NCBI GenBank assembly: GCA_945883495.1
Contig: CAMCXS010000064.1
Span: 1-32,858 of the forward strand
Source of the DNA: Akkermansia muciniphila
GTDB lineage: Bacteria; Verrucomicrobiota; Verrucomicrobiia; Verrucomicrobiales; DEV007
Reading direction: 5' to 3'
Length of the DNA stretch: 32,858 bases
Below the pieces are notes generated by a model, which worked only from the letters and a program-made list of their open reading frames with translations, was not told the DNA's origin and ran no database searches. The position numbers and the translations under genes were made by a program. This document shows, piece after piece, positions 28,247 through 32,858 of the stretch. Position 1 is the first letter of the stretch; every line of letters starts with the position of its first letter.

Positions 28247-28365
28247 CAGGGCGGAAACCCAGGTTGTTGTTCCGGTTCGTGGGCTGGTTCGCGTTGCGGT
28301 AGCCTGATCGGCAGTTCGCGGACGTGTTGTTGAACCCGCCACCCCGGTTCACCCGGTGCGCGCCT
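28247..28365 (-). repeat. DGR template repeat (TR)
   Basis: This is 119 bp, read on the minus strand. It aligns without gaps to the variable repeat at 31829-31947 with 11 mismatches, all at coding-strand adenines of the TR (28 adenines in total, 17 unchanged). Changed positions on the plus strand are 28267, 28270, 28271, 28277, 28280, 28315, 28316, 28327, 28330, 28348 and 28349. The TR starts at the RT stop codon (two-base overlap) and reads VNRGGGFNNTSANCRSGYRN then ANQPTNRNNNLGFRP in the target's frame. Its variable codons are almost all AAC, as in known DGR templates. It would be transcribed with the RT message as template RNA. Confidence 0.96.
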
Positions 28366-29359
28366 ACGGACCGTCCCCAATGGACGATTGCTCCAACACC
28401 CTTCCCGTCAAGGCCGGTTCCGTAAACGCCAAGGCCGCCGTAACCCGGTCTTGCAACTCCCTGCCGCTCAAACTGCCTCGTGCCCAGGCTCGTTCCAAAC
28501 CGCGCACCTTCTCCCTCAGTCTCCGGCGGCTCCGCCGATTCAGGCCCACCCAGCCTGGGTGGAAGCGGAACCCCACAAAATCCAATCCCCCACTCATCCG
28601 GTTCAACACCGGCGGTTTTATTTCCAGCCCCAACTCGTCCGTCGTAAACGCCACGACCCGGTTCCGCGCCGCTTTCAGCACGTCCTTGTCATCATGCCAC
28701 AGGATCAGGTTGTCCATGTACCGTGTGTAAGCTTTGATGCGCAGTTCCTCCTTCACCACACGGTCGAGAAATCCTAGATAGAAGTTCGCGAGGTGTTGGC
28801 TGGTCAGTGCGCCGATTGGCATCCCTCGCTCTGCTGGTTGGCCCGGCGGTTGAATCACGTCCGCCCACCAACTGATGAGCTCCCGTTCCCCGAAGAGGCG
28901 CTCCACTTTGGACAGGAGCCGGTCCCGGGGCACCGTTTCAAAGTAGTGGCGCACGTCCATTTTCAAATACCACCGGCAACGCGCCGACCAGCACCTCGCC
29001 TCCGCGATCGCCGCCCGCAGGCCGAGTCCCTGACGGCACGCAAAGGTCTGCCGCACCAGCCACCGTTCAAACACCGGCTCGCAAACGTTGATCACCGCGT
29101 GGTGCATCACCCGGTCCGGGAAACAGGGTGCTGAGATGAGCCGCTCCTTTGGATCGTGGATAGTAAACGTCCGGAACTCGCCGATCGGTCCCCGCCCGTC
29201 CACAAGGCGCCGTTGTAACTCCTCCAAACTCTCGGGCAGCCGTCGCAAGAATGCCTGCACGTCCCCGCGCGTCCTCTTTCCCCGGAGCGCTTGCGCCAGA
29301 GCGGTCTCCAGATTGGTCCACGTCCCGATCCGCGGCCACAGCTCAATTTCCCGCCTCAT
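28364..29359 (-). CDS. DGR-type reverse transcriptase
   Basis: This 331-residue RT has motif A as YLKMDVRHYFETV (D135), the DGR-typical motif PIGALTSQ at residues 181-188 (xGxxxSQ, with S and Q fixed), and the catalytic box YTRYMDNLILW at 214-217. In that box the usual second aspartate is asparagine (YMDN). Later motifs LGLEIKPPVLNRMSGGLDFV and GFRFHPGW and the arginine-rich thumb (RRSRRRLREKV) follow. It copies the TR RNA into cDNA with adenine-specific errors for transfer into the VR. The start ATG has AAGGG about 10 bases upstream. Its first codons overlap the tail of an HRDC remnant. Confidence 0.95.
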   Translation of the reverse strand: MRREIELWPRIGTWTNLETALAQALRGKRTRGDVQAFLRRLPESLEELQRRLVDGRGPIGEFRTFTIHDPKERLISAPCFPDRVMHHAVINVCEPVFERWLVRQTFACRQGLGLRAAIAEARCWSARCRWYLKMDVRHYFETVPRDRLLSKVERLFGERELISWWADVIQPPGQPAERGMPIGALTSQHLANFYLGFLDRVVKEELRIKAYTRYMDNLILWHDDKDVLKAARNRVVAFTTDELGLEIKPPVLNRMSGGLDFVGFRFHPGWVGLNRRSRRRLREKVRGLERAWARGSLSGRELQDRVTAALAFTEPALTGRVLEQSSIGDGP

Positions 29360-29400
29360 GATCCGCGATGCCCTTCAAAACCACTTTCCCGCCATCCTTG
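29343..29400 (-). pseudogene. 3' remnant of a second HRDC gene
   Basis: Immediately 5' of and overlapping the RT start, the other frame reads KDGGKVVLKGIADHEAGN and then stop. The intact HRDC gene at 30228 ends KDYGEEVLKVIAEHEARD and then stop. About 75% of bases match over some 90 positions (29322-29410 against 30210-30298). So this is the tail of a diverged HRDC gene that once preceded the present RT. Confidence 0.8.
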
Positions 29401-29462
29401 CACCGGCCTTCCCCGTTCAGGTCCTTTTCGCACCTGGTCGTTGAACCGCAATTTCCCGCAGC

Positions 29463-29490
29463 TTGCGATTCAGGGCGCGAGCGATAAGTT
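29463..29490 (+). promoter_or_regulatory. Possible promoter for the AbrB/PIN pair
   Basis: TTGCGA at 29463-29468 and TAAGTT at 29485-29490 have a 16-base spacer. The ATG at 29498 is 7 bases beyond, and no Shine-Dalgarno sequence is obvious, so a leaderless transcript is again possible. Confidence 0.35.
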
Positions 29491-29497
29491 TGGATTC

Positions 29498-29752
29498 ATG
29501 ACGACAACCCTGAGGATTCCTAAGGGGCCGATTGATGGTCTCGGTTTGCATGTCGGTGATACCCTGCAAGTACTAGCGGTGGAGGATGGCTCGATTCTGT
29601 TCAGCATCAGCCACAATGACCCCGCCGCTCCGTCCGGAAGTGCCAGTGAGTGGTTGAAGTCGGCCAAGGGCAGCGTGCATCTGGCCAACGGCGAATCACC
29701 GGATGCCCTGCGCCTGGAATACTACGCCGGCAAGTACGGGATCGGAGAATGA
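29498..29752 (+). CDS. AbrB/MazE-like antitoxin
   Basis: This 84-residue protein begins MTTTLRIPKGPIDGLGLHVG and continues DTLQVLAVEDGSILFSISHN, the swapped-hairpin pattern of AbrB/MazE antitoxins. A C-terminal toxin-binding tail follows (SEWLKSAKGSVHLANGESPDALRLEYYAGKYG). The frame is open further upstream, but the ATG at 29498 starts the domain properly. It lies six bases upstream of a PIN gene. The pair is inserted between the HRDC and RT genes on the opposite strand. Confidence 0.82.
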   Translation: MTTTLRIPKGPIDGLGLHVGDTLQVLAVEDGSILFSISHNDPAAPSGSASEWLKSAKGSVHLANGESPDALRLEYYAGKYGIGE

Positions 29753-29758
29753 GCCGGG

Positions 29759-30175
29759 ATGCGGGTTTTTCTCGACACGAACATCCTCTTGGATGTGCTC
29801 CTGAATCGTCCGGCTTTCGTGGCTGACAGCGAGGCCGTCATCCTCCGCTGTGAGGCTGTGGGAGCTGAAATGTACGTAGCTTGGCATGGGCTCGCCACCG
29901 CATACTACCTCCTCAAGCGCGGACGAACGGAACAGCAGGCCCTTTCCGAAGTGGACAAGATTCTTGCCTGGGCACGGGTAGCCGGAGGAACCGACCAGGA
30001 TGCAAGACGGGCGCGCCATCTTGGTTTCGACGATTTCGAGGATTCCCTGCAAGCCGTGTCCGCCGAATCTTGCGGGGCGGCCTGGATTGTCACCCGCAAC
30101 ACCGCCGACTTCTCCAAAAGCAACGTCCCGGCGCTGACTCCCGCGGGATTCCTCAAACAAGTGCCCGCGCCGTGA
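29759..30175 (+). CDS. PIN-domain toxin
   Basis: This 138-residue PIN protein starts MRVFLDTNILLDVLLNRPAF with the first aspartate at residue 6. Middle residues SEAVILRCEAVG and the C-terminal FDDFEDSLQAVSAESCGAAW, IVTRNTADF complete the acidic set. GCCGGG six bases upstream of the ATG is a weak ribosome-binding site. Pairing with an AbrB-like antitoxin is a known combination. It is likely an RNase. Both genes are intact. Confidence 0.88.
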   Translation: MRVFLDTNILLDVLLNRPAFVADSEAVILRCEAVGAEMYVAWHGLATAYYLLKRGRTEQQALSEVDKILAWARVAGGTDQDARRARHLGFDDFEDSLQAVSAESCGAAWIVTRNTADFSKSNVPALTPAGFLKQVPAP

Positions 30176-30189
30176 CCACGAATCGCCCC

Positions 30190-30244
30190 TGCGAACACGT
30201 TCCATGATTTCGATCCGAGCCCACAGATCAATCTCTCGCCTCAT
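30190..30244 (-). pseudogene. 5' remnant of a second RT gene
   Basis: Overlapping the end of the HRDC gene, an ATG at 30244 opens a frame reading MRREIDLWARIEIMER, which parallels the present RT start MRREIELWPRIGTWTN. After about 16 codons the resemblance ends near the TA module. It marks the lost RT that once followed this HRDC gene with the same overlap. Confidence 0.72.
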
Positions 30245-30686
30245 GCTCCGCGATGACTTTCAAGACCTCTTCCCCGTAATCCTTGCACCGCCCTTCACCC
30301 ACGCCTTCGATCGCCTTCAACTCTTCCACCGTCCCGCAGCGCTGCTCCGCGATGTCCGCCAACTGCGCGTTGGAGAAGATCTTAAACAGCCGAGGCACCT
30401 TGTCCCGTTCCCCGCGTTCCTTGCGCCAGTCCTTAAGCTTCAAATACAGCCGGAACCCATCGGGTCCGAGCCGTTCCTCGTAGCCGTCATCCGGTTTTTT
30501 GTCATTTTTGCGGAACGGCGGCTTTTCCTGAGGAGTTTTGCTTTCCCCATACTCCAGACAATAGGCCCAACCGCCATCCACCTGACGGCGGTCGATCTGC
30601 AAAATCCGGTGAGTGCCCAGGAATCGGTTCAACTCATCCTGGACCGGACCACCGGAAAACGGTACGAGAAAATGTTCAAATGGCAC
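30228..30686 (-). CDS. HRDC-domain DGR accessory protein
   Basis: This 152-residue protein starts at the GTG at 30686, reading VPFEHFLVPFSGGPVQDELN then RFLGTHRILQIDRRQVDGGW. The C-terminal HRDC domain (residues about 78-150) shows LYLKLKDWRKERGERDKVPR, LFKIFSNAQLADIAEQRCGT and EELKAIEGVGEGRCKDYGEE. HRDC domains bind nucleic acid in RecQ and RNase D. HRDC accessory proteins have been noted in DGRs, often in place of Avd. Upstream the frame runs into a palindromic repeat, so the GTG (which starts just before the conserved FxxPFSGG) is preferred. The stop overlaps an RT-start remnant. Confidence 0.85.
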   Translation of the reverse strand: MPFEHFLVPFSGGPVQDELNRFLGTHRILQIDRRQVDGGWAYCLEYGESKTPQEKPPFRKNDKKPDDGYEERLGPDGFRLYLKLKDWRKERGERDKVPRLFKIFSNAQLADIAEQRCGTVEELKAIEGVGEGRCKDYGEEVLKVIAEHEARD

Positions 30687-30702
30687 AACTGAGTCAGGTT
30701 TC

Positions 30703-30771
30703 CTCGCACGAAGACGCAAAGGCACGAAGAAGGAAAAGAAATTTCTTTGTGTCTTTGTGCCTTCGTGCGAG
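30703..30771. repeat. Extragenic palindromic repeat, type GCACGAAGACRCAAAGGCAC
   Basis: CTCGCACGAAGACGCAAAGG and CTTTGTGCCTTCGTGCGAG form a long hairpin. Other copies are at 30953-31021 (inside the 250-bp duplication), 31438-31502, 31530-31595 and 31619-31685. Together they form a cluster between the HRDC gene and the DGR target gene. Confidence 0.85.
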
Positions 30772-30791
30772 CACCCATCCTTCGTGCGAGC

Positions 30792-30850
30792 ATGGACCAC
30801 ATGGAACGTTTGGAACAGATCGCCACCGATGTCGTGGATGCCGCCGTCAA
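30792..30850 (+). pseudogene. Truncated 5' copy of the GxxExxY gene
   Basis: The first 20 codons (MDHMERLEQIATDVVDAAVK) match the intact gene at 31042 and are cut by the duplication junction at 30851. Confidence 0.85.
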
Positions 30851-30936
30851 AAAATCCGGTGAGTGCCCAGGAATCGGTTCAACTCATCCTGGACCGAACC
30901 ACCGGAGAACGGTACGAGAAAATGTTCAAATGGCAC
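30850..30936 (-). pseudogene. Truncated 5' copy of the HRDC gene
   Basis: The minus strand reads VPFEHFLVPFSGGSVQDELN, RFLGTHRIF before the frame is lost at the duplication junction. It matches the first 29 codons of the intact HRDC gene with one residue change (P to S). Confidence 0.85.
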
Positions 30937-31041
30937 AACTGACGCAGGTTTCCTCGCACGAAGACGCAAAGGCACGAAGAAGGAAAAGAAAATTCTTTGT
31001 GGCTTTGTGCCTTTGTGCGAGCCCCCATCATTCGTGCGAGC

Positions 31042-31428
31042 ATGGACCACATGGAACGTTTGGAACAGATCGCCACCGATGTCGTCGATGCCGCCGTCAA
31101 ATTGCACATGGCGCTGGGACCCGGCCTGTTGGAATCGGTCTACACCATTCTCCTGGCCAAGAAGCTTGAGGAACGCGGTTACCAGGTGGAACGCGAAGTC
31201 GCCATCCCGTTGGTCTACGAAGGCGTCACGTTCGAGATGGGATTCAGAGCCGATCTCCTCATCGAAGGTTGTTTTCTGGTGGAGTTGAAGTCGGTCGAGA
31301 AGCTCCAACCCGTTCACGCCAAACAACTGCTCACCTACCTCAAGCTGACCGGCCATCGCCTCGGTCTCCTCATCAACTTCGGCGAAGCCTATCTCAAGGA
31401 CGGCATCAAGCGGCTGGTGAACGGGTGA
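31042..31428 (+). CDS. GxxExxY protein (PD-(D/E)XK-type)
   Basis: This 128-residue protein contains the family signature GPGLLESVY (G-x-x-E-x-x-Y, residues about 25-33). The nuclease-like RADLLIEGCFLVELKSV carries the D...ExK pattern of the PD-(D/E)XK superfamily. The C-terminus reads KQLLTYLKLTGHRLGLLINF, GEAYLKDGIKRLVNG. The function of GxxExxY proteins is unknown. They are common in this phylum and often lie near repeats. An ATG at 31051 is an alternative start. It is divergent from HRDC and the two share a control region, duplicated just upstream. Confidence 0.9.
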   Translation: MDHMERLEQIATDVVDAAVKLHMALGPGLLESVYTILLAKKLEERGYQVEREVAIPLVYEGVTFEMGFRADLLIEGCFLVELKSVEKLQPVHAKQLLTYLKLTGHRLGLLINFGEAYLKDGIKRLVNG

Positions 31429-31437
31429 TCGCATTTC

Positions 31438-31685
31438 CTCGCACAAAGCCACGAAGACACAAAGAACTCTTCCCCCCTTCGTGCCTTTGTGTCTTCGTGC
31501 GAGAACCTTTCCCGACTGACGTATCGGGCCTCGCTCAAAGCCACGAAGACACAAAGATTTCGCCTCCCCTTCGTGCCTTTGTGCCTTCGTGCGAGATCCC
31601 TCCCCTACGGAGATCAGGCCTCGCACAAAGACGCGAAGACACAAAGATATCTCCTCCCCTTCGTGCCTTTGTGCCTTCGTGCGAG
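31438..31685. repeat. Array of three palindromic repeats
   Basis: Hairpin units at 31438-31502, 31530-31595 and 31619-31685 share arms of the form CACGAAGACACAAAG and CTTTGTGYCTTCGTGCGAG with variable spacers. They fill the 3' side of the DGR target gene, between its stop (31791) and the GxxExxY stop (31428). Confidence 0.85.
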
Positions 31686-31790
31686 CCCCGTTCCCCTTCC
31701 GAGTGCGCCCGCTCCAGCCGCTCCAGTGCCGCTGCGGTGGGGCGGGCAGAGCCCTTGCTCCCCACCGCCGCGTCCCTGGCGCGGCTTCCG

Positions 31791-32858
31791 CTAGTTTGCT
31801 GGCCGGGTTCCAGATCCGGGGACCAATGCAGGGCGGAAACCCAGGTTGATGCGCCGGTCCGCGGGCTGGTTCGCGTTGCGGTAGCCTGATCGGCAGCCCG
31901 CGGACGTGATGCTGAACCCGCCACCCCGGAGCACCCGGTGCGCGCCTGTGAGGCCCACTGGATCCTTCCGCGCCCCCTCTGGATACGCTGCGGCCTCGAC
32001 GTCGAGGGAATCCAGGCACCACTCATACACATTCCCGTGCATATCCACGAAGCCCCAGGGATTCGGAGGGTAGGTCCCGACCGGTGCCGAGTACTCTTTC
32101 CCGTCATCATGCTCCTTGTCCGCATCGGGAAATCCGCCTGTCTTGTCGTTGTAGTTCCCAAACTGGTGCAATTTCTCCACCTCATCCCCGAACGAATACG
32201 CCGTGGTGGTCCCGGCGCGGCAAGCGTATTCCCACTGCGCCTCGGTGGGGAGGCGGTATTCCCATCCTGGCGGAATGGTGCCCCGGGCGCGTTCCCGGTC
32301 GGTGAGGCGCTGGCAAAAGGCTTCCGCCTCGAACCAGCTGAGGTTTTCCACGGGCCCTTGCGGTCCGGTGGCGGTGTTCGTGCTCGGGTTGGTTCCGATC
32401 ACGGCTTCGTAAACGGCTTGGGTGACTTCCGTCCTGGCCAGCCAAAAACCTTCGGTCAAAGTGACCTCGTGCGGCTTCGCATACCACTGCTCCGTATCGC
32501 CCATGGTGAACGTGCCCGACTTGCACCAGAGCATTTTGGCGCCTTCGCCATTGTCGAAGGCTTCGCCGGGTTTGACCTCGAAGGCCACTTGCGGGGCTTT
32601 GAGCCCGAGCCAGGTCATTTGCCGGGCGCGGAGCCGGGCTTCGTGGGATCGGCCGGCCTTTTGCGCGGCCTCAAACGCGGCCAGTAACCCGGGCTGGGTC
32701 CAGGCGTCGGGACGTGGCGGTTCGCCGCCGGCTCGCCATTGCGCCACGATGCTGGTCTCCGGCAGGGGGAGGAAGCCGCTGCCCTGCTTCCAGACAAACT
32801 CCTGGGCTTTGTTTAGCTGATACCAGGCCTGGTTGACTGGATTGACCTCATTGACGTA
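31791..32858 (-). CDS. DGR target: FGE-sulfatase/C-type-lectin protein (5' end outside window)
   Basis: 355 residues are visible and the frame is open to the window edge. A helical region (residues 1-100, VNQAWYQLNKAQEFVWKQGS and RSHEARLRARQMTWLGLKAP) precedes the FGE-type domain from about residue 108. Visible domain motifs are MLWCKSGTFTMGD, EGFWLARTEVTQAVYEAVIG, WEYRLPTEAQWEYACRAGTT, YSFGDE, NPWGFVDMHGNVYEWCLDSL and HRVLRGGGFSITSAGCRSGY. The VR covers residues 304-344, close to the C-terminus, as in other CLec-fold DGR proteins. Diversified positions sit in the presumed ligand-binding face. The protein probably acts in recognition, not as a sulfatase activator. Confidence 0.93.
   Translation of the reverse strand, partial: YVNEVNPVNQAWYQLNKAQEFVWKQGSGFLPLPETSIVAQWRAGGEPPRPDAWTQPGLLAAFEAAQKAGRSHEARLRARQMTWLGLKAPQVAFEVKPGEAFDNGEGAKMLWCKSGTFTMGDTEQWYAKPHEVTLTEGFWLARTEVTQAVYEAVIGTNPSTNTATGPQGPVENLSWFEAEAFCQRLTDRERARGTIPPGWEYRLPTEAQWEYACRAGTTTAYSFGDEVEKLHQFGNYNDKTGGFPDADKEHDDGKEYSAPVGTYPPNPWGFVDMHGNVYEWCLDSLDVEAAAYPEGARKDPVGLTGAHRVLRGGGFSITSAGCRSGYRNANQPADRRINLGFRPALVPGSGTRPAN
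31829..31947 (-). repeat. DGR variable repeat (VR)
   Basis: 119 bp inside the target gene, 38 bases upstream (genomic) of the stop side. Relative to the TR the coding changes are AAC to CTC, AGC, ATC, GGC, GAC, CGC and ATC, and ACG to GCG, giving L, S, I, G, D, R, I and A. The right-hand block CAACCTGGGTTTCCGCCCTG is invariant and is the likely initiation-of-homing sequence. Two AAC codons in RNANQP are unchanged. Confidence 0.96.

Follow-up and report, generated by a model that had tools for sequence, protein, structure and literature searches.

Can a diversity-generating retroelement (DGR) without a visible avd gene rely on an HRDC-domain protein as the partner of its reverse transcriptase (RT)? 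The question is raised by a 32,858-nucleotide stretch of Akkermansia muciniphila DNA, called here the window, which is the entire contig C64 of its assembly, the sequence to its right being unreadable. The DGR RT of 331 amino acids is encoded at 28364..29359 on the minus strand (RVT_1, E 3.1e-15), and the template repeat (TR) lies at the 3′ end of this gene (28247..28365, minus strand). The variable repeat (VR; 31829..31947, minus strand) lies in the C-terminal part of a target gene of FGE-sulfatase fold (31791..32858, minus strand; PF03781, E 2.1e-44) whose 5′ end is past the contig edge. The two repeats span 119 nt with 91% identity, and all 11 mismatches between them fall on TR adenines. 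The HRDC gene is the nearest RT-strand gene upstream of the RT gene, 868 nt off with an opposite-strand insert between them, and a GxxExxY/PDDEXK_3 gene (31042-31428, plus strand; 131 bits against a cut-off of 35) is located between the target and HRDC genes. The window RT was found to be the sister of the RT of locus L126 (58-59% identical) and groups in the tree with RTs having A-type TR/VR pairs. The window cassette belongs to the HRDC class of DGRs and has the order target/VR, HRDC, RT and TR.

The HRDC accessory gene (30228..30686, minus strand) has a GTG start that aligns with the start methionine of its relatives, and encodes a 152-residue protein consisting of an N-domain, a linker and an HRDC domain. 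In Pfam, PF00570 matched residues 79-145 with an E value of 3.2e-15 (56.3 bits against a cut-off of 23.8), and the other row was a sub-threshold HHH match within the HRDC part. The AlphaFold model of the protein showed a mean pLDDT of 90.5 and a pTM of 0.60. The HRDC domain covers residues 69-151 (30234..30482, minus strand), its first helix starting at residue 69, and compared with E. coli RecQ HRDC (1wud) it gave Z 14.6 and an rmsd of 1.2 over 77 residues, and with RNase D Z 12.8; RecQ HRDCs were the best solved folds for this part. Its fold is the same as that of the RecQ and RNase D domains (PF00570; 1wud, 1yt3), whereas the window protein has an N-domain and no helicase or nuclease part. 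Searches of Pfam, NCBIfam and PHROGs matched nothing in the first 70 residues. The first-pass annotation had set the N-terminal 75 residues apart from HRDC as a possible new domain; a separate domain was indeed predicted there, and its length was revised. The folded β-α-β-β part, in blocks with pLDDT of 90-98, spans residues 3-47 and is followed by a flexible linker at 48-68, in which residues 57-64 have pLDDT below 50. We assign this N-domain, whose profile also matches at relatives, to residues 1-47 (30546..30686, minus strand). When whole-protein models were compared, its structural matches were weak (Z 4.3-5.2 for the window protein and at most 5.5 for the type 2 described below) and its arrangement common, ACT/ferredoxin-like or uL23-like folds being those compared. 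In Foldseek, uL23 ribosomal proteins appeared weakly at E 0.34 and worse, and the viral structure library gave a best E of only 0.044.

Avd, a basic four-helix bundle, was searched for at two levels. A profile of RT-adjacent Avd proteins found none in the window at E ≤10. The NF033474 (DivGenRetAVD) model, run against the whole assembly (96% complete), found none above its cut-off of 80 bits, its four sub-threshold matches reaching 21.5 bits at best. The window HRDC protein itself is not an Avd match (PF22296/NF033474). These searches bore out the first-pass annotation, both in the absence of Avd near TR, RT or VR and in naming the HRDC protein as the sole accessory candidate of the cassette. 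The same genome contains a second DGR on contig C187 (L008, G000:C187:1-4374) with a contiguous order of target, HRDC, RT and TR. Its HRDC gene overlaps the RT gene by ATGA, its RT is 39-42% identical to that of the window and has a frame that runs on into the TR, 11 of its 14 TR/VR mismatches are at adenines, and it gave no Avd profile match. It is unlikely that an avd gene is hidden past the edge of the window contig, because the genome search gave nothing above the cut-off and the C187 DGR has no Avd profile match either. A third DGR on contig C76 (L009, 4684-6203) is a relic. It retains a target with VR, followed by an N-domain protein that breaks off at about residue 91, an IS200-type transposase flanked by a pair of 71-bp repeats with 79% identity, and a TR with 10 of 12 mismatches at adenine. 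The transposase stands where the RT and most of HRDC would be, and no RT match was obtained in this relic.

The window copy itself has several oddities. The second Asp of the YxDD motif of its RT is Asn (YMDN; 28709..28711, minus strand). In an alignment of 178 RTs, YxDD is present in 176 and Asn is otherwise found only in L081 (YADN). Loss of the second catalytic Asp of YxDD impairs an RT. The insert that parts the HRDC and RT genes is a pair on the plus strand, made of a PIN-domain, VapC-like gene that is toxin-like (29759..30175; PF13470, E 3.3e-17) and, before it, a small gene that is antitoxin-like by position (29498..29752; PF04014 MazE, E 0.018, 15.4 bits, below the cut-off of 24.7). 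It is flanked on both sides by 89-bp copies of the junction between HRDC end and RT start (29326-30299). The copy at 29326..29414 retains the RT start and the copy at 30211..30299 retains the HRDC end, both on the minus strand and 83% identical to each other. Since the HRDC and RT genes normally overlap, such a junction duplication would let both survive the insertion. A long HRDC-RT gap also occurs in relatives (L167, 811 nt). In addition, a 250-bp tandem duplication in two copies (30601..31100, 96%) covers the first HRDC codons, and its outer copy carries a truncated N-terminus (30847-30936). A chimeric origin of the window HRDC, with an HRDC C-terminal remnant upstream of the RT, was considered and is disfavoured; L126 is the nearest relative of both the intact HRDC (43.5%) and the RT (58%), and local duplication around the insert is thus the simpler account. 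Separately, the region 30759-31689 between HRDC and target contains five copies of a MITE-like repeat around GCCTTCGTGCGAG, some as inverted pairs, where 0.14 were expected by chance.

These features raise the possibility that the window cassette is decaying and its HRDC gene a leftover, with diversification now provided in trans by the C187 DGR or not at all, and we hold this to be evenly balanced. The YMDN motif, the 868-nt distance with the toxin-antitoxin-like insert within, the extra truncated HRDC start and the presence of an already degraded DGR on C76, where a transposase has replaced the RT, are consistent with decay. On the other side, the HRDC and target reading frames are open and the RT keeps 28 of the 29 columns conserved at ≥95% in the 178-RT alignment. 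The single Asn may stem from an assembly error. Because adenines are the sole sites of TR/VR difference over the 119 nt, the element was active not long ago and any loss would be recent. From its motif and insert, the window DGR is probably impaired; its descent and anatomy make it a DGR, perhaps one that is now inactive. Decay of this copy is compatible with the explanation that we favour for the HRDC class as a whole, in which the HRDC protein serves as an RT partner.

The association of HRDC with DGR-type RTs was examined in an RT survey comprising the best 80 genome and best 80 viral RT loci from longer lists. The query was an alignment of HRDC-neighbour RTs, and the 80 genome loci are therefore not a sample of all DGRs. 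An HRDC protein adjoins the RT in 79 of these best 80 genome loci, the contig of the eightieth (L163) ending at the RT, and in 4 of the best 80 viral loci. The profile that was built of the N-terminal region, as the first-pass annotation had proposed, matches 78 of the 79 HRDC-bearing loci among these best 80 genome loci; in the remaining one (L184) the N-domain is lost to a contig end. The record titles of the genome loci name Verrucomicrobia, Planctomycetes, Bacteroidetes, Chlorobiaceae, delta-proteobacteria and others. No natural HRDC-RT fusion frame was present among the survey open frames. A plasmid search with the window protein returned 13 records, of which seven were annotated as recQ, one was a UvrD2 helicase, one an HRDC protein (on pPAES01) and four without a named feature. 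A phage search with the type-2 protein also returned 13, comprising 11 unannotated and two RecQ records. With the L049 protein, a viral scan recovered just the contig of that protein, and the A2 viral scan gave no matches; the alignment A4 held 86 rows after near-duplicates were removed.

In a phylum sample of 288 genomes, the best 30 matches were made into loci, 29 of them from other genomes. Among the matches listed, all 17 loci with open frames of 156-332 amino acids have an RT in the 1.5-kb flanks, as does an eighteenth short locus found later, and none of the 12 loci with open frames of 631-952 amino acids (RecQ size) has one. Thirteen further stretches were added from the matches listed, with open frames shorter than about 420 amino acids or with the N-domain only. 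They comprised nine HRDC frames without the N-domain, one without a profile match and three broken type-2 N-domains. Taken together, among the matches listed an RT lies within about 1.5 kb of 18 of 18 N-domain + HRDC frames and beside none of the 21 HRDC frames without the N-domain (12 RecQ-sized and nine of 154-415 amino acids). The three broken N-domains (on G209:C256, G090:C109 and G158:C223; loci L280 1204-1422, L281 1457-1891 and L282 15-599) end after 35-38 positions. By eye, one is placed behind an FGE-type frame and before an RT-start-like stretch and another runs into TR-like text, and all three look like DGR relics. Since the HRDC frames without the N-domain have no RT and those with it all do, it is the N-domain, and not HRDC as such, that marks the link with DGR RTs or their relics in the genomes examined.

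The relation of HRDC to Avd was followed in the same data. Among the 160 survey loci (best 80 + 80), 82 have HRDC only, one has both, three have Avd only and 74 have neither by the HRDC and Avd profiles, 73 of these last being viral. The profile of RT-adjacent Avd found Avd in four loci, namely L050, L051 and L052 without HRDC and L049 with it, and those of L049, L050 and L051 were confirmed by PF22296 and NF033474; none of the best 80 genome RT loci has Avd. In the phylum sample, where N-domain + HRDC loci number 18, Avd was found at one (L025 of genome G285), between HRDC and RT. The NF033474 cut-off was passed in 3 of the 288 genomes, which are G285, G158 (an Avd-RT locus and an HRDC-RT locus on a separate contig) and G145 (an Avd match without RT in its flanks). 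The plasmid pPAES01 of Prosthecochloris aestuarii (L271), as annotated, has the order target, HRDC, avd and RT, and its HRDC belongs by profile to a second subtype. Thus, HRDC and Avd stand together in three loci (L049, L025 and pPAES01), all with subtype-2 HRDC followed by avd and then RT, which rules out strict mutual exclusion; the mutually exclusive presence that the first-pass annotation had proposed to survey did not hold. At loci of type 1, the window-like subtype, Avd was absent in all those examined (0/79 genome loci, 78 of them with a type-1 N-domain and one cut; 0/3 viral; 0/12 phylum). The full profiles of the two types aligned with an hhalign probability of 99.8 and their N-domains alone with 92.9. 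Both are predicted to fold as strand-helix-strand-strand, the type-2 model being built from seven sequences with a mean pLDDT of 73.7. We propose this β-α-β-β N-domain, present in the window protein, as a shared accessory feature.

Two other small genes were seen next to RTs. In 56 of the 77 loci without HRDC (viral, L053-L125), a related frame of about 100 amino acids lies directly after the RT or at its end (for example L053:5950-6243). It has no Pfam match and no NCBIfam match over cut-off, is present at none of the Avd loci, and may be another accessory. On pPAES01 a hypothetical gene (L271, 5964-6260) lies after the RT and before a second FGE-family gene.

The anatomy of the HRDC class is uniform in most loci. 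In 81 loci, a count that omits L184 (N-domain cut) and L049, 69 show an overlap of the HRDC gene with the RT start; the two genes are ≤30 nt apart in five and farther apart in three, and HRDC follows the RT in four (L137, L139, L143 and L148). The scan for TR/VR, which covered L126-L205 and L046-L052, found a clear A-type pair in 67 of the best 80 genome loci and none in the flanks of the other 13. Of the pooled mismatches, 949 of 960 are at TR A, with nine at C and one each at G and T, each base having been given an equal chance. The A-type pairs beside HRDC loci indicate that adenine mutagenesis ran there without a visible Avd. The TR is at or 3′ of the RT end in 66 of the 67 (55 after the frame and 11 in read-through) and before the RT in one; it is before the RT in the three Avd-only viral loci and after it in L049, which has both helpers. 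The type-1 HRDC proteins have a median net charge of 0 and the window protein one of -3, and five trimmed Avd proteins have +6 to +11 with a pI of 9.4-10.1. The HRDC protein therefore probably does not simply copy Avd, and the idea that it mimics Avd by charge is unsupported. RT charges do not separate the accessory groups (medians 17 to 25.5).

The distribution of accessories was placed on unrooted RT trees, in which the direction of accessory change is not readable and to which pPAES01 does not belong. A 141-row tree included every second of the 73 viral rows with neither helper and excluded L163, and a 47-row tree was a hand-picked subset with 29 of the 94 type-1 rows. In the larger tree, the 94 type-1 RTs form one side of a branch with support 96, and the type-2 and the type-2 + Avd RTs each form one side of a branch. 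In the smaller tree, the type-1 split has 100/98 and the other two group splits 100/99 and 99/96. The type-2 and type-2 + Avd rows of this tree join (98/91) inside a set that holds Avd-only rows and rows with neither. Five changes of accessory label are enough to explain the RT tree, against shuffle means of 42.3 (141 rows) and 17.3 (47 rows). Distances of the N-domain correlated with those of the RT at r 0.63 (partial 0.47) and those of the HRDC part at 0.58 (partial 0.37), values that are confounded by shared ancestry. Accessory type follows RT phylogeny in these trees.

We consider it reasonably probable that the HRDC protein is the RT partner in a clade without Avd, in the place that Avd usually holds. 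In such a mechanism, the N-terminal β-α-β-β domain would dock on the RT, the HRDC domain would hold a nucleic acid, which may be TR RNA, cDNA or target DNA, and the pair of RT and HRDC protein would do the job of RT-Avd in BPP-1. This division of labour between an RT-docking N-domain and an HRDC domain that holds nucleic acid is proposed tentatively. The three loci with both helpers indicate that HRDC is no mere substitute for Avd, and the 74 of 160 survey loci with neither by profiles suggest that a DGR-type RT may need neither helper. A wider reading, which we put forward as a conjecture, is that the N-domain serves DGRs specifically as an RT-docking module, the RT of the HRDC clade being an Avd-independent mutagenic enzyme. 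The jobs of Avd and HRDC would then be separate and partly additive, one having replaced the other through an intermediate with type 2 and Avd. It has also to be weighed whether the HRDC protein acts at homing, by recognising the VR end, a single strand or a hairpin of the target DNA and aiding the entry of mutated cDNA, the RT alone making the cDNA. The accessible passages of PMC4891356 present the RecQ HRDC as a contact module for DNA and other proteins, RecQ HRDCs are the closest solved folds, type-2 HRDC alongside Avd in three loci fits a role other than that of Avd, and the near-neutral charge of HRDC is unlike that of Avd. However, gene overlap and co-inheritance with the RT suit an RT cofactor equally, and we regard a homing role as rather unlikely. 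A chance placement of the HRDC gene next to the RT, which the first-pass annotation had kept in view, is refuted by 79 of the best 80 genome loci and 18 of 18 phylum frames and has a negligible probability.

HRDC as a DGR accessory is already published in the sources as far as their accessible passages go, and the window element is a further case of this widespread known class. In Treponema denticola, a small HRDC gene is part of the core cassette in each of the nine isolates that carry a DGR, overlaps the RT gene (47 bp in one example) and was proposed as an RT helper (PMC4891356, accessible passages). The T. denticola and window DGRs share the small HRDC gene by the RT, and the overlap in Treponema is found in relatives of the window; they differ in that the Treponema accessory gene lies between TR and RT, whereas the TR of the window follows the RT. 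HRDC and MSL are given as “other known accessory proteins” of DGRs in the relevant lines of PMC10053308, and “avd or HRDC” is named as the accessory in those of PMC3240598, in line with the first-pass remark that HRDC-type accessories had been mentioned in DGR surveys. The accessible text of PMC7159879 and PMC5603734 added nothing on HRDC in DGRs. For BPP-1 rebuilt in E. coli, the available part of PMC12875486 states that Avd inactivation lowers repair to about 1e-9, and proposes the E. coli host for DGRs with alternative accessory factors. Both Avd (PF22296/NF033474), required in that rebuilt DGR, and the HRDC protein are thus small RT-partner genes, whereas the latter consists of β-α-β-β and HRDC, is neutral or acidic and, in the window, belongs to a cassette with the TR after the RT. 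Like the window, the pPAES01 DGR carries HRDC within a DGR-type cassette and has a gene of the formylglycine-generating-enzyme family upstream; it differs in having HRDC subtype 2, then an annotated avd and then the RT. Degenerate DGR loci and MITE-like repeats inside one genome, as described in the passages seen of PMC10907252, resemble the C76 relic and the repeats in the window. The accessible HRDC-DGR literature other than the main survey (PMC5758913) gave no description of the N-domain, the two subtypes or Avd co-occurrence. Added here are a separate small N-domain that marks DGRs or their relics in the genomes examined, relatives with both helpers, and a copy that looks partly broken.

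As far as the accessible sources go, the described mechanism is that of RT-Avd in phage BPP-1, and in a large bacterial clade adenine mutagenesis is seen with an unrelated helper and no visible Avd. The natural contrast that emerged from the surveys, with HRDC only, HRDC and Avd, Avd only and neither, together with the environmental plasmid pPAES01, makes the role of the accessory testable by simple deletions.
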